Assembly: GCF_007859655.1 (NCBI RefSeq)
Contig: NZ_CP042304.1
Coordinates: 248,001-312,000 of the forward strand
Direction of reading: 5' to 3'
Source of the DNA: Devosia ginsengisoli
GTDB taxonomy: Bacteria > Pseudomonadota > Alphaproteobacteria > Rhizobiales > Devosiaceae
Length of the DNA: 64,000 nucleotides
Positions 16,898-34,600 of the stretch are shown piece after piece. A program made the translations under genes and the position numbers. Each line of letters starts with the position of its first letter. Position 1 is the first letter of the stretch. Under the pieces are notes generated by a model, which worked only from the letters and a program-made list of their open reading frames with translations, did not search any database and was not told where the DNA came from.

Positions 16898-16978
16898 TGT
16901 CTACGTTTCAGCGCCTTGATTGCTCAGTCATTTGTGACTGAAGGGGGTCGATCTCGATAGTCTAGTGCCCATACCACC

Positions 16979-17608: not shown

Positions 17609-17611
17609 GGC

Positions 17612-18607: not shown

Positions 18608-18633
18608 ATCGTCCTCCCGGGCGCTGTAGCGGA

Positions 18634-18662
18634 AGGCGGGCCGCTTATGCGGCGGCCCGCCT
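18634..18662 (-). terminator. Intercistronic hairpin between dapA-like gene and dhaK
   Basis: Perfect 11-bp stem AGGCGGGCCGC/GCGGCCCGCCT with a 7-base loop, without a T-run. It probably tunes expression of dhaKL relative to the dapA-like gene. Confidence 0.55.
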
Positions 18663-18670
18663 CTGTTCAA

Positions 18671-19606: not shown

Positions 19607-19705
19607 CGAAGTCCTCCAAAGCCGGGACGGCCGCCACCGTGGCGAGCCCGGTCCGAAACGTTTTGCACCCCTGGAGCCCAATTGCGCCAGTGCGGTCATG
19701 AAATT

Positions 19706-19719
19706 CCACAATACGGAAC
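19706..19719 (+). promoter_or_regulatory. Candidate IclR operator, 14-mer copy 1
   Basis: CCACAATACGGAAC. It matches the complementary-strand 14-mer at 19822-19835 at 12 positions. It lies 100 bases before the dapA-like start, in a stretch dense with GGAAT/ATTCC half-sites. Confidence 0.4.
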
Positions 19720-19835: not shown

Positions 19836-19908
19836 TACAGAAGTTTGCGATACGGCAAGCGTCAACACCGATGTCGGCTAGCCCGACCCACCCTTGGGAG
19901 GACAAAGA

Positions 19909-20868
19909 ATGACCCTGATGAAGAAACTCGCCGGCGCCCTGGCGCTGTCCGTCCTGGCCGTCGCTCCGGCAATGGCCCAGTATCCTGATCACGCCATCAA
20001 CCTGATCGTGCCATGGGCCGCAGGCGGCGGCACCGACGCCACCGGCCGCATCGTCGCGACGCTGCTGGAAAAGGAACTCGGCCAGCCGGTCAACGTCATC
20101 AACCGCACCGGCGGTGGTGGTATCGTTGGGCACACGGAAATCTCGTACTCGCCGCCCGATGGCTACACGCTGGGCGTGATCACGACCGAGCTGTCCATGT
20201 ATCACTGGATCGGCACGTCGCCGCTGAACTACTCGAACTACGATGCCCTGGCTTTGTTCAACGCCGATCCGGAAGCGGTCTATGTCCGCACCGACGGCCC
20301 CGATATCGACGCCCTGCTGGAAGAGATTCGAGCCAATCCCGGCTCGGTCAAGGCCTCGGGTGCCAATCTGGGCGGCATGGCCCATCTCGGCTGGGCCGGC
20401 GTGCTGACCACCAATGGCATTGATCCTTCCGCCGCGCCATGGGTGCCGTCGGAAGGCGCTTCGGCCAGCCTGCAACTGCTGGCTTCGGGCGCCATCAGCG
20501 TGGTGACCACCACCATGCCTGATGCCCAGCCGATGGTCGATGCGGGCGAGGTCAAGCCGCTGCTCGTCGCCGCCGAGGCCCGCGTCGCTTCGGCCCCCGA
20601 CGTGCCCACCGCCGAGGAAGCCCTGGGCAACAAGTGGGCCGCCTATGCCTGGCGCGGTATCGGTGCGCCCAAGGGCCTGCCGGATGATGTGAAGGCTCGC
20701 CTGGTCGAAGCGCTGGACAATGTGATCAACAGCGATGAGTTCAAGGAATTCATGGCCCAGCGCAAGTTCGGCATCGACTATCGCGATGCCGCCGGCTTCG
20801 AGGCTTTCATGAAGGATGCCGACGAATCCATCGGCCAGGCGCTCCAGGCCGTCGGCCTGGCGCAGTAA
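19909..20868 (+). CDS. TTT transporter solute-binding protein (TctC/Bug family), copy 1
   Basis: A 319-residue periplasmic protein with a signal peptide ending AMAQ. The motifs YPDHAINLIVPWAAGGGTDATG and PDGYTLGVITT are typical of TctC/Bug receptors, which bind small carboxylates through two water-bridged loops. GGGAGGA precedes the ATG at 19909. It begins the operon TctC-TctB-TctA, divergent from the dapA-like operon. A 10-bp hairpin separates it from the small permease gene. Confidence 0.92.
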   Translation: MTLMKKLAGALALSVLAVAPAMAQYPDHAINLIVPWAAGGGTDATGRIVATLLEKELGQPVNVINRTGGGGIVGHTEISYSPPDGYTLGVITTELSMYHWIGTSPLNYSNYDALALFNADPEAVYVRTDGPDIDALLEEIRANPGSVKASGANLGGMAHLGWAGVLTTNGIDPSAAPWVPSEGASASLQLLASGAISVVTTTMPDAQPMVDAGEVKPLLVAAEARVASAPDVPTAEEALGNKWAAYAWRGIGAPKGLPDDVKARLVEALDNVINSDEFKEFMAQRKFGIDYRDAAGFEAFMKDADESIGQALQAVGLAQ

Positions 20869-20890
20869 GCCGGTCCTGTTAATGCCACTG

Positions 20891-20914
20891 ACGGCCGGGG
20901 TTCGCCCCGGCCGT
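20891..20914 (+). terminator. Intercistronic hairpin after TTT binding-protein gene 1
   Basis: Perfect 10-bp stem ACGGCCGGGG/CCCCGGCCGT closed by a TTCG tetraloop, between the binding-protein stop and the small permease start. Probable attenuator or mRNA-end stabiliser. Confidence 0.65.
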
Positions 20915-20936
20915 TCAACCAACAAAGGGGGAGCGC

Positions 20937-21389
20937 ATGAAGCGGTCAATTCCTATGGATAGTGTGCTCGGACTGCTGTTCGCCCTGGCGGGCGCTGCAA
21001 TCCTGCAGCAGGCGCTCAACATGCATCCGCTGCCGGGGATGAATGTCGGGCCGGGCCTGTTTCCTTCCATTGTCGGCGGCGCCATGGCGCTGATGGGCGT
21101 AGCGCTGACCATCCAGGGCTGGGTGGTTCGCGATGTGCCCGAAGAGGACGCACCGCCGCTGGTGACCTGGTTCGCCATCGGCATCGTGGCTGCCATCGCG
21201 GCGGTCATCTTTGTCATGCCCTATCTGGGGTTCCTCGTGGCCGGCACGATCTTCTCGGTCGTCATCGTGCTGCTCAGCCGGGGCGGGTGGCTGCCGGCGC
21301 TGATCTTCAGCCCCATCGCTACCGCCACGATCTATTATCTTTTCACCATGGCCTTGCGGGTTCCGCTGCCACGTGGGCTGCTGGGGTAG
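20937..21389 (+). CDS. TTT transporter small membrane subunit (TctB family), copy 1
   Basis: A 150-residue protein with four hydrophobic segments; the first carries the PGMNVGPGLFPSIVGGAM motif typical of TctB. GGGGGAGC precedes the ATG. It pairs with the large subunit that starts 7 bases after its stop. Confidence 0.9.
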   Translation: MKRSIPMDSVLGLLFALAGAAILQQALNMHPLPGMNVGPGLFPSIVGGAMALMGVALTIQGWVVRDVPEEDAPPLVTWFAIGIVAAIAAVIFVMPYLGFLVAGTIFSVVIVLLSRGGWLPALIFSPIATATIYYLFTMALRVPLPRGLLG

Positions 21390-21395
21390 ACATAA

Positions 21396-22901
21396 ATGGA
21401 AGCATTTGCTCTCGCCGCCGGCCTCGTCTTCAATTTCGAAACGCTGCTGACCATTTTCCTCGCCGCCGTGTTCGGCCTCTTCGTCGGCGCCATTCCGGGT
21501 CTCACCGCCACCATGGCGACGGCTTTGCTGGTGCCGATCACCTTCTACATGGCGCCCATTCCTGCTATCGCGGCGATCATCTCCTGCACCGCCATGGCCA
21601 TCACGGCCGGTGACCTGCCCGGCACGCTGCTGCGCATTCCCGGCACGCCGGCCTCGGCCGCCTATGTCGAGGATTCCTATCGTCTGGCCCAGAAAGGGCA
21701 AGCGGGCCTAGCCATCGGTATCGGCGTGGTGGGTTCCGTGCTGGGGGGCCTGTTCGGCTTCCTGTTCCTGCTTTTCACCGCGCCCATGCTGGCCAAGGCC
21801 GCCTTGGGTTTTTCCAGCTTTGAATATTTCTGGCTGGCCGTGCTGGGCCTGAGCTGCGCGGCACTGATCTCGTCCGGCGGCATGGTCAAGGGCGCACTGG
21901 CGCTGCTGCTGGGCCTATTCATCGCACAGGTCGGCATGGACCCGCTGACGGCGACGCCGCGCTATACGTTCGGCAATCTCGAACTCATGGGCGGCATCAG
22001 CTTCATTCCGGTCATGATCGGCATGTTCGCCGTGTCCGAAATCATGCGCTCGGGCCGCCGCGCCATGGCCGAAGTGCCGCAGATGAACCTCAAGAACCCC
22101 TTCGAGGGCACGCTCGGCGCGCTATGGAAGTATCGCAAGAACCAGGTGCGCGGCTCGATCATCGGTTCGTTGCTGGGCGCATTGCCCGGCGTGGGCGGGG
22201 ACCTGGCCGCCTGGATCACCTATTCGCTGGCCAAGCGCACCTCCAAGGAACCGGAAAAGTTCGGCAAGGGCCACCCCGAGGGCCTGGTCGAGGCCGGCGC
22301 CACCAATAATGCAGCGCTGAGCGCGTCGTGGATCCCGGCCATGGTGTTCGGTATTCCCGGCGATGCGGTGACGGCGATTGCCGTGGGCGTGCTGGTCATG
22401 AAGGGGCTCGACCCTGGGCCGACCCTGATGAGCCTGCATCCGGAAAATTTCTATGCGGTGATGATCGTCTTCGCCATCGCCAATATCCTGATGCTGCCGC
22501 TGGGCTGGGTCGCCGCCAAATCGGCCCGCTGGATTTTCGAAGTGCCGCGCGCATTGCTCAATGCCGCTATCCTGCTGTTCTGCATCGTCGGCTCCTATTC
22601 GATGAACAATTCGATGTTCGGGGTTACCCTGATGCTGATTGCCGGCGTCGTCGCCTATATCCTGGAGGCGCGGATGATCGCCATCGCCCCCATCATTCTG
22701 GGCATTGTGCTGGGGCCGCTGGTGGAGACCAACTTCACCACCTCGATGATGATTTCGGACGGCAGCCTGCTCGGCTTCTTCAGCCGCCCCGTCGCCGCCG
22801 TACTGGGCATTGCCACGCTGATCATCTGGGGCTTCGCCATATTCGGCACGATCCGGCGCCTCGTGCGGGGCAGTGGCGAAGTGGGGCAGGTCCCCGGATA
22901 G
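21396..22901 (+). CDS. TTT transporter large membrane subunit (TctA family), copy 1
   Basis: A 501-residue membrane protein of normal TctA length. VGAIPGLTATMATALLVP and GALPGVGGDLAAW are the two repeated glycine/proline signatures of the family, and GIPGDAVTAIAVG follows in the second half. About a dozen transmembrane segments. It imports, by ion gradient, the carboxylate bound by the protein from 19909. The next gene belongs to the neighbouring IclR regulon. Confidence 0.93.
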   Translation: MEAFALAAGLVFNFETLLTIFLAAVFGLFVGAIPGLTATMATALLVPITFYMAPIPAIAAIISCTAMAITAGDLPGTLLRIPGTPASAAYVEDSYRLAQKGQAGLAIGIGVVGSVLGGLFGFLFLLFTAPMLAKAALGFSSFEYFWLAVLGLSCAALISSGGMVKGALALLLGLFIAQVGMDPLTATPRYTFGNLELMGGISFIPVMIGMFAVSEIMRSGRRAMAEVPQMNLKNPFEGTLGALWKYRKNQVRGSIIGSLLGALPGVGGDLAAWITYSLAKRTSKEPEKFGKGHPEGLVEAGATNNAALSASWIPAMVFGIPGDAVTAIAVGVLVMKGLDPGPTLMSLHPENFYAVMIVFAIANILMLPLGWVAAKSARWIFEVPRALLNAAILLFCIVGSYSMNNSMFGVTLMLIAGVVAYILEARMIAIAPIILGIVLGPLVETNFTTSMMISDGSLLGFFSRPVAAVLGIATLIIWGFAIFGTIRRLVRGSGEVGQVPG

Positions 22902-22935
22902 CCGGGCACTGAAAACGACGCGCCGCCGGTTCGAT

Positions 22936-22950
22936 TTTCGCGCGTCGAAA
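22936..22950. promoter_or_regulatory. IclR-type operator site 1 (TTTCR-N5-YGAAA)
   Basis: TTTCGCGCGTCGAAA, a 15-bp palindrome 65 bases before the aldolase ATG at 23016. The same pattern occurs at 25293, 25323, 27403, 27464 and 28365. Confidence 0.6.
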
Positions 22951-22961
22951 CAAGGCAGAAC

Positions 22962-22985
22962 AGGTGACGCCATCAGGCGTCACCT
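22962..22985 (+). terminator. Perfect hairpin before the HpcH/HpaI aldolase gene
   Basis: 10-bp stem AGGTGACGCC/GGCGTCACCT with loop ATCA. It could end transcription from the TctA gene. It lies downstream of operator site 1, so it may also be transcribed in the leader of the aldolase mRNA. Confidence 0.55.
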
Positions 22986-22989
22986 TGAT

Positions 22990-23013
22990 ATCGACTCCGC
23001 ACAAGGAGTCGAT
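22990..23013 (+). promoter_or_regulatory. Hairpin enclosing the aldolase ribosome-binding site
   Basis: Perfect 9-bp stem ATCGACTCC/GGAGTCGAT with loop GCACAA. The 3' arm contains the GGAG ribosome-binding site of the gene that starts at 23016, so folding would hide it from the ribosome. A regulatory role is inferred. Confidence 0.5.
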
Positions 23014-23015
23014 CC

Positions 23016-23816
23016 ATGCCGCCCACTACAGCTTCCTTTCGCCAGTTCGCCGCGCGGCTGAGAGCCGGCGCACACCTGGCCGGCACTTTCGTCAAGACAC
23101 CGACCAGCCACGCCATCGAAATCCTCGGCCAGACCGGGTTCGATTTTGTCGTCATCGATATGGAGCATGCCGCGATCGGCCTGGCGGCACTGGACCAGAT
23201 GCTGCTGGCCGCGCGTGGCGCCGATATCGCAGGGGTGGTTCGCGTTGCCGAAGCGGCGCCGTCGGCGATCCAGACGGCACTGGATACCGGCGCTTCTGGC
23301 GTGCTGGTGCCTCATATCTGTTCGCGGGAACGCGCCGAGGCCATCGTGGCGGCGGCCCGCTACAAGGGCGGCAGGCGCGGCTTTGCCAATACGACGCGGG
23401 CTGGGGCCTATGGCGCGGTGGGGTATGAGGCCCATAAGGCCGCACAGGATCAAGAAACCGCCTGCATCGCCATGATCGAGGATGTGGAAGCCCTCGATGT
23501 CCTCGATGACATTCTGTCCGTTGCCGGGCTCGATGCCATCTTCATCGGGCGCGGCGACCTGACGGCCGCGCTGGGCGGCGAAACAATCAACGATCCCCGG
23601 ACGACGGCGGTGGTGCGCTCGATCATGGTCGCCGCCATCAGGCACGGGGTGCCGGCCATCACCATCTGCAGTGACGGCGAAGATGCCCGGACCATGGCCG
23701 CGCTGGGCGCGACGGCATTCATGATGGGTTCGGACCAGGGTTTCATGGCCAAGTCGGCGCGGGCGGCATTGGCCACTCTCGCCGAACTCGAAGGGAGAGA
23801 CAAAGATGCGCATTGA
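23016..23816 (+). CDS. HpcH/HpaI family aldolase/citrate lyase
   Basis: A 266-residue TIM-barrel class II (metal-dependent) aldolase. The catalytic and ligand motifs VVIDMEHA, NTTRAGAYG, MIEDVEAL and IGRGDL are all present. Enzymes of this family retro-aldol cleave 2-keto-3-deoxy acids to pyruvate and an aldehyde. Its ribosome-binding site lies in a 9-bp stem. It overlaps the next gene by 11 bases, so the two are translationally coupled. Operator site 1 places it in the IclR regulon of 24277. Confidence 0.9.
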   Translation: MPPTTASFRQFAARLRAGAHLAGTFVKTPTSHAIEILGQTGFDFVVIDMEHAAIGLAALDQMLLAARGADIAGVVRVAEAAPSAIQTALDTGASGVLVPHICSRERAEAIVAAARYKGGRRGFANTTRAGAYGAVGYEAHKAAQDQETACIAMIEDVEALDVLDDILSVAGLDAIFIGRGDLTAALGGETINDPRTTAVVRSIMVAAIRHGVPAITICSDGEDARTMAALGATAFMMGSDQGFMAKSARAALATLAELEGRDKDAH

Positions 23817-24267
23817 CGAAAACAGGTTCGAACTGACGCGCGTGCTGCACACGCTGCTGATCGACTACTGGCACGATGTCGATACGAACTGGGGCCGCAA
23901 TGCCCCCGATTACTATACGCCTGACGGGCTGTTCGAAGGCCCCGCGGCCTCCTATGCGGGGCGCGAGAAAATCCGCGCCTTCTACAAATGGCGTGAGGAT
24001 CGCGGCGCCCGCACCGTGGTGCATTCGGTGCAGAATTTTCAGGCGCAGTTCGATGGCGGTCCCGACAAGGCAGTCTGCCACTGGTTCATGATGCTCTATG
24101 CCGCGGACGGCAAACCCGTCCTGCCCACGCATCCCCCCATCCAGATCGCCTATATGACCGACCGCCTTGTCAACACGGAGGATGGCTGGAAGGTCACCTT
24201 CCGCAAGTTCGACATCTGGTTCGAAGGCGGCACGCCGGCCACCAATCCGATCCTGGATGATAACTGA
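23806..24267 (+). CDS. SnoaL-like/nuclear transport factor 2 fold protein
   Basis: A 153-residue small alpha+beta-barrel protein. The N-terminal helix followed by YYTPDGLFEG and the later DGWKVTFRKFDIW strand match the SnoaL-like/NTF2 fold, which is used by isomerases, cyclases and dehydratases. Coupled by an 11-base overlap to the aldolase gene, it could isomerise or dehydrate the aldolase substrate, but no catalytic assignment is possible from sequence alone. Confidence 0.75.
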   Translation: MRIDENRFELTRVLHTLLIDYWHDVDTNWGRNAPDYYTPDGLFEGPAASYAGREKIRAFYKWREDRGARTVVHSVQNFQAQFDGGPDKAVCHWFMMLYAADGKPVLPTHPPIQIAYMTDRLVNTEDGWKVTFRKFDIWFEGGTPATNPILDDN

Positions 24268-24276
24268 CCGGCGGAA

Positions 24277-25206
24277 CTAGAGGTCTACCTCGTAATCCCG
24301 CTCGGCGGCTGGATCGAGATGCGGGCGGTCGCTGATGAAGGCGAGGGCGTGTTCGATATTGATCCGCGTCTCGATCAATGGCTCCAGCACCATCTGCCGC
24401 ACATCCTTGCGGGGTACCGAGGCGGTGAAGAAGCTCACCGACATGACCGCCGCGACCCGCTGCTTTTCGAGTATGGGCACGCTGAACGTGGTCATGCGGG
24501 TCGGCCCGGTGCCTGGCACCCGCATGGCCAGGCCCGACTGGCGGATACGATCCAGCAGGTCGCGGAACGTGGCCTCCTCGTCGGCGCCGAATTCGGCCGG
24601 CAGCCGCTTGCGCAGGGCGCGAATATGCCGGTCGCGCTCGTCCTCGCCACAGAAGGCCATATAGGCCCTGCCCATTGCCGAGCTGAGCAGGTCGGGGCGT
24701 TTGCCCAATACGGTATTGGTGTGGACAACGGGGCTGATCGTGCCGGTCCAGTATCGGATCTCGATGGCGTCGCCATCGATCTCGCCCAGCCCGATCGGCC
24801 ACTTGATCTGCCGGGTCAGCCCGATGGCGAGCGGGCGGGCGATCTCGATCACCCGCGATATGCCGCTATAGCCCGCCGAGAGCTCCGCCACCTTGCCCGT
24901 GACGCGGTAGCCGCCGCACATATTGTCGCGAACGACATAGCCCTCATGCATCAGCGTTTCGAGCATGCGCACGATCGTCGGTCGCGGAATGCCGGTCTCG
25001 GCATGCAGCGAATTCACCGTCGCGATGGATTTCTGGTTGGCAACCTTGAGGATTTGCAGGGCGCGACGCACCGAGTTGACGGGCGGGTAGGAGCGATCCT
25101 GCGGGTCGGTCGAGCCCCGCCGGGAATTGGTTCGGCGATGCACGCTGGTCTGCGCGGGGGCGGCAACGCCCTCCTCGCGGTCCTGGTCGTGAACAGCTAT
25201 TTCCAT
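24277..25206 (-). CDS. IclR-family transcriptional regulator
   Basis: A 309-residue IclR regulator. An unusual basic and acidic N-terminal extension (about 50 residues) precedes the helix-turn-helix with ETGIPRPTIVRMLETL, followed by the effector domain with SAMGRAYMAF. The ATG at 25206 has GGGGGGAAG right before it. It faces the SnoaL-like gene and is divergent from the cupin-like gene. Six copies of TTTCR-N5-YGAAA in all neighbouring promoter regions, including its own, make it the probable master regulator of 22.9-28.4 kb or further to 34.6 kb. Confidence 0.92.
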   Translation of the reverse strand: MEIAVHDQDREEGVAAPAQTSVHRRTNSRRGSTDPQDRSYPPVNSVRRALQILKVANQKSIATVNSLHAETGIPRPTIVRMLETLMHEGYVVRDNMCGGYRVTGKVAELSAGYSGISRVIEIARPLAIGLTRQIKWPIGLGEIDGDAIEIRYWTGTISPVVHTNTVLGKRPDLLSSAMGRAYMAFCGEDERDRHIRALRKRLPAEFGADEEATFRDLLDRIRQSGLAMRVPGTGPTRMTTFSVPILEKQRVAAVMSVSFFTASVPRKDVRQMVLEPLIETRINIEHALAFISDRPHLDPAAERDYEVDL

Positions 25207-25292
25207 CTTCCCCCCGATCTGCCGCACAGGCGGCACTAGAGCTGCCAACTCTAGGGGTTGCGGTGTTCTCAACGAAATCACAGCGACTTCGA

Positions 25293-25307
25293 TTTCACAA
25301 GGTGAAA
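25293..25307. promoter_or_regulatory. IclR-type operator site 2
   Basis: TTTCACAAGGTGAAA, with an extended TTTCAC/GTGAAA dyad. It is 86 bases ahead of the IclR start at 25206 and its centre is 30 bases from site 3. Confidence 0.6.
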
Positions 25308-25322
25308 CCCGGAAGCCGGAAT

Positions 25323-25337
25323 TTTCATCGCTCGAAA
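25323..25337. promoter_or_regulatory. IclR-type operator site 3
   Basis: TTTCATCGCTCGAAA, 101 bases ahead of the cupin-like start at 25439. It differs at only one position from site 6 before the TTT operon. Confidence 0.6.
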
Positions 25338-25438
25338 TCCTGCAGGCGCGGCCCGTCCCTCGCCGGGCCTTGCCACATACTGGCCCGATCTAGATCGGCG
25401 CCCGGATTGGTTTGGCCGCCGCGCAAGGAGAATGAACA

Positions 25439-26368
25439 ATGAGCGAACTCTCACGCCGGCAGGCGTCCCGGTCGGTCTTTTCCGAACAGGAACCCCAGCA
25501 GATCGGCAAAGACGGCCTGTCGCGGACCTGGATCACGCGGGGCGGCAATATGGCCGTCTGCGTCTCGGAGGTCGAAGCCGGTGCGGTGCTGACCTGGCAG
25601 GACAATCCCGAGGAGCACATGCTCATCATTCCGCCGCGCGGCGCGGCAATGGAAGTGGAAACCGGCGGCGAATCCATGCTGGCCGAACCTGACTCGCTCA
25701 CCATCCTGCCACCCGGCTCGGGCCGGCTCATTGCCCGCGATACCGGCAGGATTGCGCGGATATTCTCAAAGGCGGCGACCGACGTCATGGCGCTTGCCAT
25801 CAACAGCGATGCCTATGCCGATGGTGCGCCGGAACTGGCGCCGGTCGATCTCTGGCCCGAGCCGATCGGTGGCTTCAGGATCCGCCACTATCCGCTGGCG
25901 CAATATATCGACCCCCAGGGCGACCGCATCCAGCCGCGCTGCTTCCGGTCCACCAATATGATGGTGAACCTTTTCGGCCATTTCTTCACCCGTCGCGGCA
26001 CGACGGAGCTAAGCCCGCACTGGCATGACGATTTCGAGCAGGCCTCGCTATGCCTGGACGGCGCCTGGATCCACCACATCCGCTACAACTGGGGCGCCGA
26101 CCTGAACACCTGGCTTCCCGACGACCATTCGGTGACACCGACGCCATCGGTCATGGTCATTCCCGCCCGCGCCATTCATACCAGCCGGGATGTCGGCGCG
26201 GACGGACCGGAGAGTTCGCTCTACGACATCTTCTGCCCGCCACGCATGGACTTCGCCTCCAAGCCCGGATTTGTCCGCAACGAGGATGAGTATCCCCTGC
26301 CGGCAAGAGGCAATGACGGGGAGCCGAAGACCGGCGGCACGCTGCTCAGTTGGCAGAAGTCCGGCTGA
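25439..26368 (+). CDS. Cupin-like protein of unknown function
   Basis: A 309-residue protein that appears to hold two cupin-type beta-barrels. The first half has EEHMLIIPPRG and a proline/glycine-rich ILPPGSGRLIAR turn; the second has SPHWHDDFEQASLC, a histidine/glutamate pattern like cupin motif 1, and ARAIHTSRDVG as a possible motif 2. A metal-dependent isomerase, dioxygenase or decarboxylase is possible. AGGAG lies 8 bases before the ATG. It has its own promoter with operator site 3, so it belongs to the IclR regulon. Confidence 0.7.
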   Translation: MSELSRRQASRSVFSEQEPQQIGKDGLSRTWITRGGNMAVCVSEVEAGAVLTWQDNPEEHMLIIPPRGAAMEVETGGESMLAEPDSLTILPPGSGRLIARDTGRIARIFSKAATDVMALAINSDAYADGAPELAPVDLWPEPIGGFRIRHYPLAQYIDPQGDRIQPRCFRSTNMMVNLFGHFFTRRGTTELSPHWHDDFEQASLCLDGAWIHHIRYNWGADLNTWLPDDHSVTPTPSVMVIPARAIHTSRDVGADGPESSLYDIFCPPRMDFASKPGFVRNEDEYPLPARGNDGEPKTGGTLLSWQKSG

Positions 26369-26400
26369 TGAGGACTGGCCGGAGCCGCCCTGGCTCCGGC

Positions 26401-27333
26401 CTAGAAATTCACGCGATCGCCGCCCTTCAATGCCAGCATGTCGCGGGCTTCGTTGGGCGTCGCTACGGCAAAGCCGAGCGCCTCGACCATCTGGCGCGCC
26501 AGCCGGACCTGCTCGGCATTGGATTCCGCCAGTCGGCCCGGCCCGGCCCATAGCGAGTCCTCGAGCCCGACTCGCAGATGGCCGCCCATAAGCATGGATT
26601 GCATGGCGATGGCCATCTGGCTGCGGCCGGCGCCCAGCACCGACCAGCGATAGTCGTCGCCGAACAACCGGTCGGCCGTGCGCTTCATATGCATCACGTC
26701 TTCATTATGCGTGCCGATACCGCCCAGAATGCCGAAGACGCTCTGGATGAAGACCGGCGCCTTGAGCAGTCCGCGCTCGAAGAAATGGGCGCAGGTATAG
26801 AGATGGCCGATATCGTAGCACTCGATCTCGAACCGCGTGCCGTTCTCGGCGCAGGTCGTCAGGATTTTCTCGATATCGGCAAAGGTGTTGCGGAACACCC
26901 GATCGCGCGAGCCTTCGAGATAGGGACGCTCCCATTCATGCTTGAAGTTGCCGTAGCGCGACAGCATGGGATAGAGGCCGAAATTCATCGATCCCATGTT
27001 GAGCGAGGCCACTTCGGGCTTGAATTCCGCCACCGGCCGCAGGCGTTCGTCGATGCTCATGGTCGGGGAACCGCCCGTGGTGATGTTGAGCACGCAATCG
27101 GTGCGCTGCTTTATCGCCGGAAGAAGGGCGCCAAACTGCTCGATCGACTGATCGGGCTGCCCGGTCACCGGGTTGCGCGCATGCAGGTGAATGATGGCGG
27201 CTCCGGCCTCGGCGGCTCCTATGGCTGCATCGATGATCTCGGCGGGCGTGACGGGCAGGTGCGGCGACATCGATGGCGTATGGATAGCGCCGGTGACGGC
27301 GCAGGTTATGATGATCTTGCGTTGTTTGGTCAT
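26401..27333 (-). CDS. BKACE family beta-keto acid cleavage enzyme (DUF849)
   Basis: A 310-residue TIM-barrel zinc enzyme. IIHLHARNPVTGQPDQ contains the zinc-binding histidines, and TTGGSPTMSIDERL and GHLRVGLEDSLWAGPG are core family motifs. Characterised members condense a beta-keto acid with acetyl-CoA to give a CoA thioester and acetoacetate. The chosen start (MTKQRKIIITCAVTGA) gives the normal family N-terminus; 50 extra codons upstream lack similarity and include operator site 4. It stands on the minus strand between the cupin-like and SDR genes. Confidence 0.9.
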   Translation of the reverse strand: MTKQRKIIITCAVTGAIHTPSMSPHLPVTPAEIIDAAIGAAEAGAAIIHLHARNPVTGQPDQSIEQFGALLPAIKQRTDCVLNITTGGSPTMSIDERLRPVAEFKPEVASLNMGSMNFGLYPMLSRYGNFKHEWERPYLEGSRDRVFRNTFADIEKILTTCAENGTRFEIECYDIGHLYTCAHFFERGLLKAPVFIQSVFGILGGIGTHNEDVMHMKRTADRLFGDDYRWSVLGAGRSQMAIAMQSMLMGGHLRVGLEDSLWAGPGRLAESNAEQVRLARQMVEALGFAVATPNEARDMLALKGGDRVNF

Positions 27334-27402
27334 GTTGGCGCTCCACTTCTGGCCGGCATCAGTAGCGAAACAACCGCCGCATACCCCGGCCAAAACCGCA
27401 GA

Positions 27403-27417
27403 TTTCGAGGGCTGAAA
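27403..27417. promoter_or_regulatory. IclR-type operator site 4
   Basis: TTTCGAGGGCTGAAA, 69 bases before the BKACE start at 27333. Confidence 0.6.
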
Positions 27418-27463
27418 GAAACGCGGCTCGGCGCTTCGATGGCGGCCGGCGGTCCGCGAATGC

Positions 27464-27478
27464 TTTCGGCAAATGAAA
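27464..27478. promoter_or_regulatory. IclR-type operator site 5
   Basis: TTTCGGCAAATGAAA, 108 bases before the SDR start at 27587, in the same divergent region as site 4. Confidence 0.55.
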
Positions 27479-27586
27479 ATCACGCAGAAAAGGATTCTCG
27501 GGGCAGGGGGTGTCGCCTAACCTTGGCACTCGTTCACGGGCGGCAGGTTCCCCGTGTCTATCGTCATATGCAGATGCGGAGGTCTC

Positions 27587-28339
27587 ATGGGAGACGTTGT
27601 TATTGTAACGGGTGCCAGCAGCGGCATCGGCGCGGCCACGGCCCGCCTGCTCGGGGCCGCCGGCGCCAGCGTGGTGGTGAACTACAAGAGTTCGCGCGAC
27701 CTGGCCGAAGGCGTCGTCGCCGAGGTCGAGAAGGCCGGCGGCAAGGCGATCGCCATCCGCGCCGATATGGGCAAGGAAGCCGATATCCTGGACCTGTTCG
27801 CCCAGACCGACAAAGCCTTCGGTCCGCTGACCGGCCTCGTCAACAATGCCGGCGTCAACGGCCCGCAGCACCGCTCAGCCGATAATTACGACTTCCAGGA
27901 GGCCATGGACATTTTCGCGGTCAATACGGTCGGCGTGCTCATCGCCTGCCGCGAAGCCATCAAGCGGATGTCGACCAAGCATGGTGGGGCCGGTGGCAGC
28001 ATCGTCAATATTTCCTCGATCGGCGCCCTGACAGGCTCGCCCGGCCGGTTCATCCATTATGCCGGCTCCAAGGCGGCCGTCGATATCATCACCAAGGGCC
28101 TGGCGGTCGAAGTCGCGCGCGATGGCGTGCGCCTCAATGCCATCCGCCCCGGCATGATCGATACCCCGATCCATGCCAAGGCCGGCCAGGCGGATCGGGT
28201 GAAGGAATTCGCTGCCAAGAACCCGCTGGGCCGGGCCGGCCAGCCCGAGGAAGTGGCGGAGGCCATTGCCTGGCTGCTGTCGAGCAAGGCCTCGCTGGTC
28301 ACCGGCGCCGTGCTCGATGTGATGGGGGCGCAGCGCTAG
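27587..28339 (+). CDS. SDR family oxidoreductase (glucose 1-dehydrogenase-like)
   Basis: A 250-residue classical short-chain dehydrogenase with TGASSGIG for cofactor binding, NNAGV, the catalytic Ser in NISSIG and YAGSK in HYAGSKAAVDI. The length and motifs are those of NAD(P)-dependent sugar or 3-oxoacyl reductases. GGAGG lies close before the ATG at 27587. It is preceded by operator site 5 and followed by operator site 6 and the second TTT transporter. Confidence 0.9.
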   Translation: MGDVVIVTGASSGIGAATARLLGAAGASVVVNYKSSRDLAEGVVAEVEKAGGKAIAIRADMGKEADILDLFAQTDKAFGPLTGLVNNAGVNGPQHRSADNYDFQEAMDIFAVNTVGVLIACREAIKRMSTKHGGAGGSIVNISSIGALTGSPGRFIHYAGSKAAVDIITKGLAVEVARDGVRLNAIRPGMIDTPIHAKAGQADRVKEFAAKNPLGRAGQPEEVAEAIAWLLSSKASLVTGAVLDVMGAQR

Positions 28340-28364
28340 GAGCGCGCGCGACAAAGCGGGCGGT

Positions 28365-28379
28365 TTTCATTGCTCGAAA
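28365..28379. promoter_or_regulatory. IclR-type operator site 6
   Basis: TTTCATTGCTCGAAA, 145 bases before the TTT binding-protein start at 28525 and 26 bases after the SDR stop. Confidence 0.6.
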
Positions 28380-28524
28380 CAATATGCGCGCGATCTGGCC
28401 CGGTTCGAAATCTGCCATAGCATCCCGATGCTGGCGCCGCGCGGCGTCTTGCGGCGGACCGCGCCGACTACGTTTGCGACCATGTACAGATGGCGTTACC
28501 ACGCCACACCAGGGAGGAATATCG

Positions 28525-29535
28525 ATGAATAGGTTTGTTTCAGGGCCCCGGAATACGGGCCGGACAATGCGGCACCGGCTGGCAATGACGGCCCTTGTCG
28601 TGGCCACGGTCCTCGGCCTCGCGCCCGCAGGCGTCATGGCCCAGGATTATCCCAACCAGCCCATCACCGCGATCGTGCCATTCGGCGCCGGCGGCGGGGC
28701 TGATACCCAGACCCGTATCTGGGGCGAGGCGATCGCGCCGCTGATCAAGCAGCGCATCATCGTGGAAAATGTGGCCGGTTCGGCCGGCGTGGCCGGCACC
28801 AAGCAGGGCATCGGCGCCGAACCGGATGGCTACAGCGTGATCCTGGGCGCCGCTTCGACCATCGCCATCAACCCCGTCACCAATACCGCTGCCGACTATG
28901 ATCCGCTCACCGACATGCGCCCTGTCGCCCTGATCGGCTACACGCCCTACGTCATGGTCGTGGCCAACAATCTCGACGTGAAGACGCTGGGCGAGTTGAT
29001 CGAATACGGTAAAGCCCATGAAGGGGAACTGACCTATGCGGGATGGACCGCGGTCGGCGAGTTCGCCCGCAAGGGCCTTGAAAACCGGACGGGCCTGGCA
29101 ATGACCCCGGTGCCCTATAAGGGCGTGACGGAAGCCATGACCGATGTCATCGCGGGGCGCGTCTCGGCGAGCATCCTCGATATCTCGACCGCCCTGCCAT
29201 TCATCCGCTCGGGCAGCGTCACCCCGATCGTGATGACCGGCCCCGACAAGTCGCCGGCTTTGCCCGACGTGCAGACCATCGATGAGGCGGGCGTCAGCGA
29301 CTATCTCATCGATTCCTGGATCGGCCTGTTCGTTCCCAAGGATACCCCGGACGAGATCGTCGAATTCCTCAACGCCAAGACGCTCGAAGCGCTGCAGGGC
29401 CAGATGGCCACCGACCGCTATGCCGACCTCGAGATCGAGCGGCGCGACTACAATGTCGCTGAAACCTATGACTTCATGGAGCGGCAGGTCAGCGGCTGGA
29501 AAGCCCTGATCGAGGAAGTCGGCCCGGCCGAGTGA
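28525..29535 (+). CDS. TTT transporter solute-binding protein (TctC/Bug family), copy 2
   Basis: A 336-residue periplasmic receptor with a long signal peptide: charged n-region to about residue 17, then a hydrophobic core ending in GVMAQD. Mature motifs YPNQPITAIVPFGAGGGADT and EPDGYSVILG are typical of TctC/Bug proteins, and LIGYTPYVMVVANNLDVKTL continues the ligand domain. GGGAGG precedes the ATG. First gene of an operon running through the permeases to the two dehydrogenases at 31865 and 33119. Confidence 0.92.
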   Translation: MNRFVSGPRNTGRTMRHRLAMTALVVATVLGLAPAGVMAQDYPNQPITAIVPFGAGGGADTQTRIWGEAIAPLIKQRIIVENVAGSAGVAGTKQGIGAEPDGYSVILGAASTIAINPVTNTAADYDPLTDMRPVALIGYTPYVMVVANNLDVKTLGELIEYGKAHEGELTYAGWTAVGEFARKGLENRTGLAMTPVPYKGVTEAMTDVIAGRVSASILDISTALPFIRSGSVTPIVMTGPDKSPALPDVQTIDEAGVSDYLIDSWIGLFVPKDTPDEIVEFLNAKTLEALQGQMATDRYADLEIERRDYNVAETYDFMERQVSGWKALIEEVGPAE

Positions 29536-29542
29536 CGAAATG

Positions 29543-29582
29543 GGCAATTGGCGGCCGGGCAAGGGTCCGGTCGCCGATTGCC
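29543..29582 (+). terminator. Intercistronic hairpin after TTT binding-protein gene 2
   Basis: Long imperfect stem: GGCAAT, GGCG and CCGG on the left pair with CCGG, CGCC and ATTGCC on the right, interrupted by single mismatches. It is in the same relative place as the hairpin at 20891. Confidence 0.6.
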
Positions 29583-29625
29583 GGGCTGCGCTGCGCCATG
29601 GCGAGCCGACAGGAGGACTTCGAAC

Positions 29626-30273
29626 ATGACATCTGAACCCGTGGCCATGACGCCGCCATCGCCGGTCCCCTATCACAGTCGTATCGACGTGATCGGCGGC
29701 GCGACGATCATCTTCATCGCCGGTCTCATCTGGTATGGAGCGATCGAACTCACCGTTGGCCAGATGGCCAATTTCGCCTCCGGCGCCCTGCCCAAGGCCA
29801 TATCCATCATCCTGTTCGCCGCCGGCGGCTGGGTGTTCCTGCATGGGCTGATGCAGCGCGGTGAGGAGGCCGAGCGCTTCGAATTTGCCTTCCGGCCCAC
29901 GGCCACCGTCGTCCTGGCCATCGTGCTGTTCGGCCTGTTCATCCGGGGTGGCGACTTCGGGCTGATATCCACCCCGCAACTGGGGCTCATGGTGGTCGGG
30001 CCGCTGACCGTCTTCATCGCCGGCAGTGCCACGCCGCAAATGCAGGTCAGGCAGTTGCTGATCCTGTCATTCGGGCTGACCGCGGCGATGTTGCTGCTGT
30101 TTCCCGACCTGCTGCGGGCGCCGATCCCGGTCTTTCCGAAATTCATCCAGGGCGCCATCCCGCCCTCATTCGGGATCGATGCCGCGGTGAGAGTGCTCTA
30201 CGCGGCCTACGCCGCCCTGGCAGCGGCGCTCTATGTCGTCTTCTACAGAATGGCGGAGACGCAGCGTGACTGA
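29626..30273 (+). CDS. TTT transporter small membrane subunit (TctB family), copy 2
   Basis: A 215-residue membrane protein, longer than copy 1 (150 residues), with at least four and probably five hydrophobic segments. RIDVIGGATIIFIAGLIWYG is the first helix and FASGALPKAISIIL follows at the usual place. AGGAGGA precedes the ATG. It overlaps the large subunit gene by 8 bases. Confidence 0.85.
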   Translation: MTSEPVAMTPPSPVPYHSRIDVIGGATIIFIAGLIWYGAIELTVGQMANFASGALPKAISIILFAAGGWVFLHGLMQRGEEAERFEFAFRPTATVVLAIVLFGLFIRGGDFGLISTPQLGLMVVGPLTVFIAGSATPQMQVRQLLILSFGLTAAMLLLFPDLLRAPIPVFPKFIQGAIPPSFGIDAAVRVLYAAYAALAAALYVVFYRMAETQRD

Positions 30274-31771
30274 TCTCGCCCACCACCTGCTGCTCGGCTT
30301 CTCCGTCGTCCTGTCGGTGGAAAACCTCATGCTCTGCCTCATCGGCTGCCTGGTCGGCACGCTGATCGGCGTCCTGCCCGGCATCGGGCCGCTGGCGACC
30401 ATCGCCATCCTGATGCCTCTGACTTACAATTCCGAGCCGGCCGGGGCGATCATCATGCTCGCCGGCATCTATTACGGCTCCCAATATGGCGGCTCGACCA
30501 CAGCCATCCTGGTGAACATGCCCGGAGAATCCTCGTCCGTGGTGACGGCGCTGGATGGCCATGCCATGGCCCGGCAGGGCAAAGCCGGCAAGGCACTCGG
30601 CATAGCCGCAATCGGCTCGTTCATCGCCGGCACCTTCGCCACGCTGGTGCTGGCGGGTATCGCCATTCCGCTGTCCAAGCTGGCCCTCAGCCTGACCGCC
30701 GGCAATTACTTTGCCCTGATGGTGCTTGGCCTGACCCTGGCCATTGTCGTTGGCGGCGGCTCGCTGCTCAAGGCATTCTGCGCGCTGCTCATCGGCGTCG
30801 TCATGGCGCTGGTCGGTGCCGACCAGATTACCGGGGAACCGCGGCTCACCTTCGGGACGCAGGTGCTCTATGACGGCTTCGACATTGCCGTGGTCGCGAT
30901 GGGGCTGTTCGGCATTGCCGAAATCCTGCGAAACCTCGAAACACCGGAAAGCCGGCCATTCGTGGGCGATGTGGTCGGCGGATTGCTTCCCAACAAGCAG
31001 GACATGAAAGCCTCGGCCGGGGCCATTGCGCGCGGCTCGATCCTCGGCAGCCTTGTCGGCATCGTGCCCGGAAACGGGGCCACGCTCTCCTCCTTCGCTT
31101 CCTATGCGCTGGAAAAGCGGGTGGCGCGCCACCCCGAAGAATTCGGCAAGGGCGCCATCCAGGGCGTTGCCGGTCCGGAATCGGCCAACAATGCCGCGGC
31201 CCAGACGACATTCGTTCCGCTGCTCACGCTGGGCCTGCCCTCAACCGCCACCATGGCGCTGATCGGCGGGGCGATGACGCTGCATGGTGTCGTGCCGGGG
31301 CCGCAACTGATCCAGATGCATCCCGACCTGTTCTGGGGTGTCGTTACCTCGATGTGGCTGGGCAATCTGATGCTTGTCGTCATCAACCTGCCGCTGATCG
31401 GCATCTGGGTGCGGCTGCTGAAAGTGCCCTATCACCTGCTGTTCCCCGCCATCGTGCTGATCTGCTGCATCGGCATCTATTCGGTGAATTCCCGCCCCAC
31501 CGATATTCTCATGGTCGCCGCCTTCGGGGCCATCGGCTACCTGTTCTACAAGCTGAAATTCGAGCCGGCGCCCCTGCTGCTCGGCCTCGTCCTGGGGGGA
31601 ATGCTCGAGGATTCGCTGCATCGCGGCCTGATCCTGAGCCGGGGCAACCTCTGGGGCTTCCTGGCCGACCCGATGACCCTCGTGCTGCTGCTGATTTCGG
31701 TGATCGTCGTCGTCTCGGCGCTTTCGCCATCGATCAGCCGACGCCGGCATGTCCTGGCCGAGGAGGGGTAG
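30266..31771 (+). CDS. TTT transporter large membrane subunit (TctA family), copy 2
   Basis: A 501-residue TctA protein, the same length as copy 1. IGVLPGIGPLATIAILMPLT and GIVPGNGATLSSFASYA are the paired signatures, and GLPSTATMALIGGAM is present in the second half. The GTG at 30266, which overlaps the TctB stop, has GGAG upstream and gives the normal N-terminus; an ATG at 30233 deep inside TctB is less likely. It is different enough from copy 1 to suggest a different ligand. Confidence 0.92.
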   Translation: MTDLAHHLLLGFSVVLSVENLMLCLIGCLVGTLIGVLPGIGPLATIAILMPLTYNSEPAGAIIMLAGIYYGSQYGGSTTAILVNMPGESSSVVTALDGHAMARQGKAGKALGIAAIGSFIAGTFATLVLAGIAIPLSKLALSLTAGNYFALMVLGLTLAIVVGGGSLLKAFCALLIGVVMALVGADQITGEPRLTFGTQVLYDGFDIAVVAMGLFGIAEILRNLETPESRPFVGDVVGGLLPNKQDMKASAGAIARGSILGSLVGIVPGNGATLSSFASYALEKRVARHPEEFGKGAIQGVAGPESANNAAAQTTFVPLLTLGLPSTATMALIGGAMTLHGVVPGPQLIQMHPDLFWGVVTSMWLGNLMLVVINLPLIGIWVRLLKVPYHLLFPAIVLICCIGIYSVNSRPTDILMVAAFGAIGYLFYKLKFEPAPLLLGLVLGGMLEDSLHRGLILSRGNLWGFLADPMTLVLLLISVIVVVSALSPSISRRRHVLAEEG

Positions 31772-31864
31772 ACACCCCAGGCCGCCACCAACCAACCACG
31801 ACCGACGCGAGCCGGGAACACCCGTGTCCGCGCCCCCTGAGTCATGCCTTCAAGGAGAAGAGCC

Positions 31865-33115
31865 TTGTCATTGTTCGGAAGCCTGCGCATGCCGCGCAAC
31901 CTGATCTTCGGCGCCGGCCAGCGGCGCTCGCTTGCCGGCTACGCCGCCGCATTGGGCCATCGCGCCCTCATCGTCACCGACGAACGGCTCGGCGCCGATC
32001 GCGCGCTTGCCGGTCTGGTGGATAGTCTGCGCCAGGCCGGGGTTGACGCGCATATCTTCGATGGCGTGATTGCTGAGCTCCCGACCAGTTGCATCGCCAG
32101 GGCGGTGGAAATGGGCAAGGCCGCTGCTGTCGATCTCGTCATCGGCATTGGCGGCGGCAGTTGCCTCGACGCGGCAAAGGTCACCGCTTTGTTGCTGACC
32201 CATGGCGGCAAGGCTTCGGACTATTACGGGGAATTCAAGGTGCCGGGCCCCGTGCTCCCCCTGATCTCGATCCCTACCACTTCGGGTACCGGATCTGAGG
32301 TCACGCCGGTCGCGGTGGTGACCGATCCCGACCGGGAATTGAAGGTGGGTATAGCCAGCCCTCACCTGATCAGCCATACCGCGATCTGCGACCCCGAGCT
32401 GACCTATTCCTGCCCGCCAGGGCTGACCGCCGTCTCCGGCGCCGATGCCCTGACCCATGCGATCGAAGCCTTCACCACGATGCGGCGCGAGGCTACTCCG
32501 ACGATCACACACGAACACGTGTTTCTTGGAAAGAATGCGCTCACCGATCATTATGCCCTGATGGCCATTTCGCACATCGCCTCGGGTCTCAAGCGCGCTT
32601 ATGACGACGGTGCCGACAGCGAAGCCCGCGCCCGGCTGATGCTGGGTGCGACGGCGGCGGGGCTGGCTTTCGGCACGGCCGGCACCGCGGCCGCCCATGC
32701 CGTGCAATATCCGGTCGGCGCCATGACCCATACGCCACACGGGGCCGGCGTCGCGGTGATGATGCCCTATGTCATGGAATTCAACCGCAAGTGGTGCGAG
32801 CCCGAACTGGCCGAGATCGGCCAGGCAATGGGGCTCGAACTGTCCGGGCGGCCGATATCAGAACAGGCGGGCGCCACCATCGATGCCGTCGCGCAGCTTT
32901 TCGCATCGATCGGCATCCCCCGCACGATTGCCGATCTGGGCGTCAGCGGCGCACAATTGCCGCGTGTCGCCGAGCAGGCAATGGGGATCACCCGCCTCAT
33001 CAAGAACAATCCGCGTCCCATAGACCATAGCTCCATGGCCAGTCTGGTCGATGCCGCCTTCAGCGGCGATCGGGCCCGGCTGCGTGGAGCCAATAGCGAA
33101 CCAAAGGCCAGTTGA
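31865..33115 (+). CDS. Iron-containing alcohol dehydrogenase family protein
   Basis: About 416 residues. IGGGSCLDAAK binds the nucleotide and TTSGTGSEVTP the phosphate; the metal ligands are in GADALTHAIEA, HAVQYP and HTPHGAG. Relatives include maleylacetate reductase and 4-hydroxybutyrate or lactaldehyde dehydrogenases. AAGGAG lies 7 bases before the TTG at 31865; an ATG at 31844 is an alternative start. It overlaps no neighbour but lies 3 bases before the aldehyde dehydrogenase gene, so an alcohol-to-aldehyde-to-acid sequence is likely. Confidence 0.88.
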   Translation: MSLFGSLRMPRNLIFGAGQRRSLAGYAAALGHRALIVTDERLGADRALAGLVDSLRQAGVDAHIFDGVIAELPTSCIARAVEMGKAAAVDLVIGIGGGSCLDAAKVTALLLTHGGKASDYYGEFKVPGPVLPLISIPTTSGTGSEVTPVAVVTDPDRELKVGIASPHLISHTAICDPELTYSCPPGLTAVSGADALTHAIEAFTTMRREATPTITHEHVFLGKNALTDHYALMAISHIASGLKRAYDDGADSEARARLMLGATAAGLAFGTAGTAAAHAVQYPVGAMTHTPHGAGVAVMMPYVMEFNRKWCEPELAEIGQAMGLELSGRPISEQAGATIDAVAQLFASIGIPRTIADLGVSGAQLPRVAEQAMGITRLIKNNPRPIDHSSMASLVDAAFSGDRARLRGANSEPKAS

Positions 33116-33118
33116 GCT

Positions 33119-34600
33119 ATGACCACAATGCACAAGACTACCCCGCAGACCGGCTTCGATCTGGCCGCCGTGCCGACCGGCCTGTTCATCGGTGGGACAT
33201 GGCGGCCGGGCTCGACCGGCCAGCGGATCGACGTCATCGATCCCTCCACCGGCGCCGCCATCGCGGCGGTTGCCGATGCCAGCGTCGAGGACGCCATGGT
33301 GGCCGTGCAGGCGGCAACCGATGCCGGCACTGGCTGGGCCGCGACAGCACCGCGCAAGCGTTCGGAAATCCTGCGGCGCTGCTTCGAGCTGATGGTGGAG
33401 CGCAAGGACATGCTGGCCCAGCTCATCAGCCTGGAAAACGGCAAGGCCCTGAGCGATGCGCAGGGCGAAGTCGCCTATGCCGCCGAATTCTTCCGCTGGT
33501 TCGCCGAGGAAGCGGTGCGGCTCAATGGCGAAATCTCCACTGCGCCTTCGGGCGCCAACAAGATCATCGTCCAGCACCAGCCGATCGGCGTGGCCGTGCT
33601 GGTGACGCCGTGGAACTTCCCCGCCGCCATGGCGACACGCAAGATCGCGCCGGCACTGGCCGCCGGGTGTACCTGCGTGCTCAAGCCGGCGACCGAAACG
33701 CCGCTCACCGCCTATGCCCTGGCGGCATTGTTCGCCGAGGCGGGCGTGCCCGACGGCGTCGTCAACGTGATCACGACAGGCCGATCCGGCCCGGTGGTCA
33801 GCGCCATGCTGCACGATCCCCGCGTGCGCAAGCTGTCCTTCACCGGCTCGACGGAAGTGGGCCGGCGCTTGCTGCATGAAGCCGCCGACACGGTGATTTC
33901 ATGCTCCATGGAACTCGGCGGCAATGCGCCGTTTATCGTCTTCGACGATGCCGACCTGGATGCCGCTATCGAAGGCGCCATGATCGCCAAGATGCGCAAT
34001 GGCGGCGAGGCCTGCACGGCGGCCAACCGCTTCTATGTGCAGGGCGGCATTGCCGAGGCATTTTCGCAGCGTCTGGCCGAGCGCATGGGGGCGATGCAGG
34101 TCGGCCCCGGATATGAGGCGGCAACGCAATGCGGCCCGCTGATCAATCAGGGCGCGGTCGATCGCATTGCCGGCCTGATCGACGATGCGTCGAGCCGCGG
34201 CGCCAAAGTGCTTACCGGCGGCCGGCCGCTCGACCGGCAGGGCTTCTATTTCCCGCCCACAGTGATTGCCGGCGTTGCTGGCGATGCCACGATCATGCAG
34301 GAGGAGATTTTCGGGCCGGTCGCCGCAATCGCCACCTTCGCGAGCGAGGATGAGGTCATCGCTGCCGCCAACGCTACGGAATATGGCCTTATCGCCTATG
34401 TCTATACGCGCGACCTCGCCCGCGGGCTGCGCGTGTCCGAGCGGCTGGAAAGCGGCATGGTCGGCCTCAATCGCGGCATCGTCTCCGATCCGGCGGCGCC
34501 GTTTGGCGGCGTCAAGCAGAGTGGCCTCGGCCGCGAAGGAGCGCATCACGGCATTCTCGAATTCTGCGAGACCAAGTATATCGCCGTTTCCTGGGGCTGA
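33119..34600 (+). CDS. NAD(P)-dependent aldehyde dehydrogenase (succinate-semialdehyde dehydrogenase-like)
   Basis: A 493-residue aldehyde dehydrogenase. [20 protein letters not shown] binds the cofactor, the general-base Glu is in [12 protein letters not shown], and the nucleophilic Cys is in [11 protein letters not shown]. The family position is near succinate- and other semialdehyde dehydrogenases. It is the last gene of the operon from 28525 and probably oxidises the aldehyde released by the alcohol dehydrogenase or by the HpcH/HpaI aldolase. An ATG 9 bases downstream is an alternative start. Confidence 0.92.

Follow-up and report, generated by a model that had tools for sequence, protein, structure and literature searches.

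The question raised by this locus is what six copies of a 15-bp palindrome, TTTCR-N5-YGAAA, are doing in the intergenic regions of one gene cluster of Devosia ginsengisoli (contig NZ_CP042304.1, positions 248,001 to 312,000, a stretch of 64,000 nucleotides referred to as the window here). The initial annotation of the window took them to define a compact regulon in which every promoter has one site and the regulator is the IclR-family protein encoded at 24277-25206, and our analysis supports this view. In the reading that we consider probable, the six palindromes are the operators of this IclR protein, one for each promoter, and the regulator is most likely an activator. Binding by this protein is suggested by the synteny of its gene with the sites and by its recognition helix, and we read the regulator as an activator of the MhpR kind that uses a single site at each promoter, on the basis of two features, namely, a distance of 38 to 40 bp between the operator and a −10-like element and the same offset at the mhpA gene of Escherichia coli.

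An exact search of the window returned six matches, starting at 22936, 25293, 25323, 27403, 27464, and 28365, and thereby reproduced the positions given in the initial annotation as well as its statement that none contains a mismatch. Shuffled versions of the window contained 0.15 matches on average and never more than 1 (100 shuffles). One site lies 5′ of the HpcH/HpaI aldolase gene, two lie in the gap between iclR and a divergent cupin gene, two in the gap between the BKACE and SDR genes, and one 5′ of the second tctC gene. Allowing one mismatch added no further site in the cluster and three matches in the rest of the window (36094, 49969, and 59270). The protein encoded by 24277-25206 belongs to the IclR family by its HTH_IclR (39.3 bits; cut-off, 22) and IclR_C (41.8 bits; cut-off, 24) domains. 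Two residues of its recognition helix, T77 and R80, do not vary among 27 IclR sequences, and when we aligned the helix with Table 5 of Suvorova and Gelfand (2021, PMC8222616), they matched the DNA-contacting residues Thr49 and Arg52 of TtgV. No conclusion was drawn from its predicted model (pLDDT, 78.5).

If the sites belong to this regulator, they should accompany its gene in related genomes, and conservation beside orthologous clusters was one of the tests that the initial annotation had proposed. A scan of named genomes with the IclR protein gave 12 loci, of which nine encode an IclR with 50 to 95% identity (from Devosia, Azospirillum, a Mesorhizobium metagenome-assembled genome [MAG], Tagaea, and two Proteobacteria MAGs) and three encode one with 29 to 34% identity. 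The motif is present in all nine of the former, with 34 sites in 163,777 bp and not a single match to the reversed pattern. Twenty-seven of these sites fall outside the open reading frames (ORFs) picked, and the other seven are within 104 bases of the earliest possible ORF start and do not reach into the part that aligns with the protein from the window. None of the 34 is thus deep in a gene. The three loci with 29 to 34% identity contain no exact site, and one of them (L068) has two one-mismatch sites 5′ of iclR. Some relatives with 36 to 44% identity carry sites as well: 11 sites were found on two Neorhizobium plasmids (IclR, 43 to 44%) and a Pseudorhodobacter plasmid (37%), and fifteen loci with an IclR of 35 to 43% identity contain 10 sites in 248 kb, several of these loci having none.

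The alignment of the intergenic regions adds to this picture. Among the Devosia loci, the operators of the HpcH/HpaI, SDR, cupin, and second tctC genes appear as blocks of identity in otherwise diverged gaps. The operator on the iclR side is not alignable between the window and loci L060 and L067, though each has one, and the operator on the BKACE side was not found in L060. Neither L060 nor L067 has a TctA1 or TctB1 match beside the IclR gene, and a TctC-like gene (27%) is present in L060. The gene order is changed in Azospirillum and Tagaea, where the sites stand before the new operon heads; sites stay with promoters when operons are rearranged. The IclR itself is found in few genomes, namely, only that of the window among 385 in a class-wide search (E value of 1e−50 or better), 4 of 136 in a family-wide search, and 13 of 397 in an order-wide search (E value of 1e−40 or better), the latter two counts including the window's genome. 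The cluster is scattered rather than part of the core genome.

The spacing downstream of the sites links them to putative promoters. At the six sites of the window, taken in order of position, a −10-like element recognized by comparative alignment begins 38, 39, 40, 38, 39, and 38 bp after the operator, on the side of the target gene. At the first of these candidate promoters, the sequence TGnTATCGA is kept in the window and in loci L059, L060, and L067. To quantify this spacing, we started from 69 sites in the window and the locus sets, keeping 14 control sites from the rest of the genome apart. Forty-five of them were oriented by their target gene, after leaving out six in L059 (a near-duplicate of the window), one duplicate (L065:278, identical to L108:16492), and 17 with an ambiguous target; the sites of loci L113 and L115 are not among the 45. 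A TA dinucleotide begins 38 to 40 bp after the operator at 28 of these 45 sites and at 8 on the opposite side, compared with a mean of 3.5 and a maximum of 12 when flanks were rotated (5,000 trials), a statistic that ignores shared ancestry. Since the rule was first spotted by eye in Devosia alignments, where it holds at 15/17 sites (17/17 if 37 to 41 bp are allowed), only the counts from outside Devosia are an independent test. Near orthologues outside Devosia have TA at 38 to 40 bp in 7/16 cases and at 37 to 41 bp in 9/16, with 1/16 on the opposite side. Without presetting TA, offset 39 was the most informative of 80 downstream positions at 35 sites (0.61 bit, against a mean of 0.11), closely followed by the base adjoining the operator (0.60 bit). 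The best match to TTGACA in the same 35 sites is at offset 16, which leaves a 17-bp spacer to the −10 at 39. With transcription starts placed accordingly, the operator centers at all six window promoters would lie about 58 to 60 bp upstream of the start, just upstream of the −35 region, and the predicted leaders would be 15 to 95 nt long.

These positions lead us to the following model. Dimers of the IclR protein would bind the six palindromes, each serving one promoter, that of iclR included. In the presence of a ligand, IclR bound around −58 to −60 would most likely help weak promoters of the sigma-70 type to recruit RNA polymerase, the mode of action proposed for MhpR at mhpA. We expect a local regulon, comprising import by the second tripartite tricarboxylate transporter (TTT), the HpcH/HpaI-SnoaL pair, the cupin, BKACE, and SDR genes, an alcohol dehydrogenase (ADH) and an aldehyde dehydrogenase (ALDH) gene, and iclR itself.

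The alternative that survives best keeps the same IclR regulon and takes the protein for a repressor released by its ligand or for a dual-acting regulator, repressing without the ligand and activating with it; we regard this as unlikely, if clearly worth carrying along. Regulators that have an operator at their own promoter often repress themselves, which speaks for this idea. A pure repressor would, however, be expected to overlap the −35/−10 region, and here the operators are predicted to lie outside the core promoter at a nearly constant distance, one that recurs at the operator of the annotated activator MhpR. Activators usually sit upstream of the −35 region, and the geometry together with the MhpR comparison suggests activation, a point that goes beyond the initial annotation, which named neither activation nor repression.

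Several points weigh against the activator model and against the promoter rule on which it is built. IclR proteins can repress from upstream sites, and the arrangement at iclR itself would amount to positive autoregulation, which is less common for such regulators. The −10 elements in the window are weak (TATCGA and TACTGG, for example), matches to the −35 are poor, and a scan of 22900-28600 for consensus sigma-70 promoters gave one match, at none of the six sites. At distant loci, the 38- to 40-bp rule holds in 6/12 cases and in 5/12 on the opposite side, so that the signal is not clear there, and the flanks of the 14 other sites of the genome satisfy the rule in 4 of 28 cases. Finally, 18 of 30 relatives have no exact site within 400 bp upstream of iclR, three close relatives (L065, L066, and L091) among them; in L065 and L066, a BKACE gene with a site of its own precedes iclR. 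The 12 relatives with such a site are seven of the ten with 50 to 95% identity and five of the other 20, which are more distant (L103, L106, L109, L110, and L111).

The claim of one site per promoter also has to be weighed against the idea that the two sites of a divergent gap form a cooperative tandem pair, which we consider improbable. Among 11 divergent gaps that could be called in six loci, the window included, two sites are present in 9 and a single site in 2, and the 30-nt spacing seen in some corresponds to about three helical turns. In PMC8222616, tandem IclR sites 18 to 22 nt apart are described as common, and spacings of three or four turns as overrepresented too. The center distances of our nine pairs are, however, 30, 30, 36, 36, 41, 47, 59, 61, and 61 nt. 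Because they vary this widely and do not keep phase, a phased tandem pair is unlikely; single-site gaps exist, and each site of the window has its own −10-like element at 38 to 40 bp on the side of its own gene. The near-fixed distance (6/6) and the gap counts thus favor the one-site-per-promoter arrangement that had been annotated.

A further alternative, which we hold to be very unlikely, is that a different regulator that shares the half-site, such as a ROK-type protein or an unlinked IclR, binds the sites. The scan of the whole genome that the initial annotation had suggested (4,480,314 bp in one contig) gave 20 sites, compared with 8 matches to the reversed pattern. Of the 20, six fall within the 5.4 kb of the cluster, and no second group of six exists among them. 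The other 14 comprise 9 inside and 5 outside ORFs, as judged by a crude picker that begins each ORF at its first possible start codon and hence overextends genes. Two of these 14 sites form a pair 54 bp apart at genome positions 1486950-1487018, beside divergent transporter genes and a regulator gene labeled ROK-like by eye, without a family search; the genomes of loci L059 and L060 contain the same two site sequences at the same distance of 54 bp. Two regulator families, IclR and ROK-like, may share one half-site. Across 75 genomes of the genus, matches to the pattern outnumber those to its reverse about two to one (1,235 versus 571), so that the pattern is probably used by other regulators as well. 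An equation of the motif with this regulon is weakened by this count; the case for the cluster is unaffected. Totals per genome range from 3 to 39, and since the 11 to 20 sites of the four genomes with the IclR lie within the range of those lacking it, these totals are uninformative; it is clustering and conservation that carry the case.

The initial annotation called the IclR protein the only regulator of the cluster, which is correct, but the window encodes a second IclR at 16100-16897. This gene could be invoked as the source of another binding protein, yet it has no site nearby, its best NCBIfam matches are the BhcR and KdgR models (below cut-off), and its alignment to MhpR spans at most 46 amino acids. 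It adjoins genes, within 16100-19711, that we read by eye as a split dihydroxyacetone kinase and a dihydrodipicolinate synthase (DHDPS)-family protein. The sites, for their part, accompany the gene at 24277-25206 in rearranged clusters of several genera, which argues for the IclR protein of the cluster as the one that binds them. That the palindromes arose by chance or composition and have no function is practically negligible, background matches such as those just described notwithstanding, given that none of 100 shuffles contained six sites and that conservation and promoter spacing already contradict it.

The features of the cluster are listed in Table 1. For the first operon encoding a TTT, no site of its own was found, and the site at 22936 appears to serve the HpcH/HpaI-SnoaL pair. 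The second TTT operon, which the initial annotation had placed under the site at 28365, probably also includes the Fe-ADH and ALDH genes and would then end at 34600; the gaps between tctA, Fe-ADH, and ALDH are 72 and 3 bp. The start of the SDR gene was moved to the ATG that follows GGAGG.

TABLE 1 Genes and predicted regulatory elements of the cluster (positions are those of the window)
Feature	Position	Strand	Basis or associated elements
First TTT operon (TctC, TctB, TctA)	19894-22901		Pfam
Operator 1, HpcH/HpaI-SnoaL promoter	22936..22950	+	−10-like TATCGA at 22989; predicted +1 ~23001
HpcH/HpaI aldolase gene	23016..23816	+	Pfam PF03328
SnoaL-like gene, overlaps aldolase gene	23806..24267	+	Pfam PF13577
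IclR-family regulator gene, proposed operator-binding protein	24277..25206	-	HTH_IclR and IclR_C above Pfam gathering scores
Operator 2, iclR promoter	25293..25307	-	−10-like TAGAGT at 25253; predicted +1 ~25241
Operator 3, cupin promoter	25323..25337	+	−10-like CATACT/TACTGG at 25376-25383; predicted +1 ~25390
Cupin-fold protein gene	25439..26368	+	Predicted fold; no Pfam or NCBIfam family
BKACE gene, 3,5-dioxohexanoate type by model	26401..27333	-	PF05853; NF053538
Operator 4, BKACE promoter	27403..27417	-	−10-like TACTGA at 27364; predicted +1 ~27352
Operator 5, SDR promoter	27464..27478	+	−10-like TAACCT at 27518; predicted +1 ~27530
SDR oxidoreductase gene	27587..28339	+	PF13561 (scanned from 27554)
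Operator 6, second TTT operon promoter	28365..28379	+	−10-like TAGCAT at 28418; predicted +1 ~28430
Second TTT genes tctC-tctB-tctA	28525..31771	+	TctC by Pfam; TctB and TctA by ORF order and synteny
Fe-ADH and succinate-semialdehyde dehydrogenase (SSADH)-like ALDH genes	31844..34600	+	NCBIfam best matches, below cut-offs

The gene content indicates that the cluster likely encodes a catabolic route for an imported acid. The BKACE protein scores 543 bits against the 3,5-dioxohexanoate-type model NF053538 (cut-off, 430). The cupin protein (309 amino acids) has the invariant residues H194, H196, E200, and H247 in 26 sequences, and its predicted model (pLDDT, 87) matches the folds of bicupin dioxygenases and oxalate decarboxylases in the PDB with TM-scores of about 0.4 to 0.5 by query length. 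Because these scores are modest, no reaction was assigned; no PDB sequence matched at an E value of 1 or better. Its homologues (601 at an E value of 1e−20 or better) are repeatedly found near HpcH/HpaI aldolase and IclR genes. A regulon that groups this family-less cupin with a BKACE enzyme and a TTT narrows the search for the substrate.

A paralogous cluster, encoding an IclR of 33 to 36% identity together with cupin, BKACE, HpcH/HpaI, SDR, ALDH, and TctA proteins, was found at loci L113, L114, and L115. In two other Devosia genomes (L113 and L115; IclR, 36%), it contains three sites each, of which one precedes tctC and another separates iclR from a divergent gene. TA occurs 39 to 40 bp downstream of L113:19025 and L115:15439 on the tctC side and of L113:10008 and L115:6440 on the side of the gene that diverges from iclR, and not at L113:3344. 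The paralogous cluster of the window's own genome (L114; 4130000-4149000) has no site.

Taken further, our data would fit a group of IclR activators that are related to MhpR and scattered among the Alphaproteobacteria. These would use one promoter design (a single operator, with the −10 located 38 to 40 bp downstream) throughout the cluster, also for the regulator's own promoter, would carry this design along when operons are rearranged, and would control a hitherto undescribed catabolic route of TTT import, HpcH/HpaI aldolase, cupin-fold enzyme, and 3,5-dioxohexanoate BKACE. We see the chances of this broader proposal as evenly balanced. In any case, the sighting of a motif has become a testable rule that specifies the operator class, the regulator, and each individual promoter and that predicts how the regulator acts.

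How does this system compare with known ones? With regard to the pathway, the cluster for phloroglucinol degradation in Clostridium scatologenes, as PMC10470551 describes it, also has a BKACE-family enzyme, which acts on 3,5-dioxohexanoate (triacetate), but the Devosia cluster has, among the proteins scanned, a cupin and an HpcH/HpaI aldolase instead of the "cyclase"-type hydrolase and, further, a TTT instead of a "major family transporter." Phloroglucinol degradation was not adopted as the pathway, the BKACE step being the only match: a cyclase-type dihydrophloroglucinol hydrolase was not detected among the cluster proteins scanned with Pfam and NCBIfam, no search aimed at phloroglucinol enzymes having been made, and the general family scans did not assign the SDR protein to phloroglucinol reductase.

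With regard to the operators, TTTCR-N5-YGAAA fits, by construction of the search pattern, the core of WTTYCRYW3RYGRAAW, the consensus of subgroup WTT-11-AAW in IclR motif group 1, as given in PMC8222616. The outer W is present in 64% of our half-sites, whereas the spacers show none of the YW3R preference of that subgroup. According to the same text, IclR sites are mostly centered at −20 to −80 from the start codon, but four of our six lie beyond −80 (range, −73 to −153), and the common tandem spacing is absent here. The regulon thus appears to belong to a known kind of IclR motif, and what would be new is its operator-to−10 geometry and the regulon itself, which no title in the literature searched names.

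The closest functional parallel is MhpR of E. coli K-12, an IclR-family regulator annotated as an activator and encoded beside mhpA, to which the window's IclR is 30% identical over 205 amino acids. The mhpR-mhpA region contains a 15-bp palindromic operator followed by TTGTAG at 17 and TATACT at offset 39, so that the distance from operator to −10-like element is 39 bp, within the 38 to 40 bp seen in the window. This distance was measured on the E. coli sequence; the operator itself we take to be positioned at −58 at mhpA. The two systems differ in that the E. coli operator has GTGCAC half-sites and in that the Devosia protein would serve several promoters and other target genes, and its scores against the PRK09834 NCBIfam models stay below the cut-offs (208 versus 251, 137 versus 269, and 119 versus 299 bits). 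On present evidence, the IclR of the window may therefore work like MhpR, as an activator from an upstream operator, yet it is not classed as MhpR. The shared distance suggests that IclR activators of this type may have a common promoter geometry recognizable in the sequence itself. Such a geometry would help to sort activators from repressors in the large IclR family.

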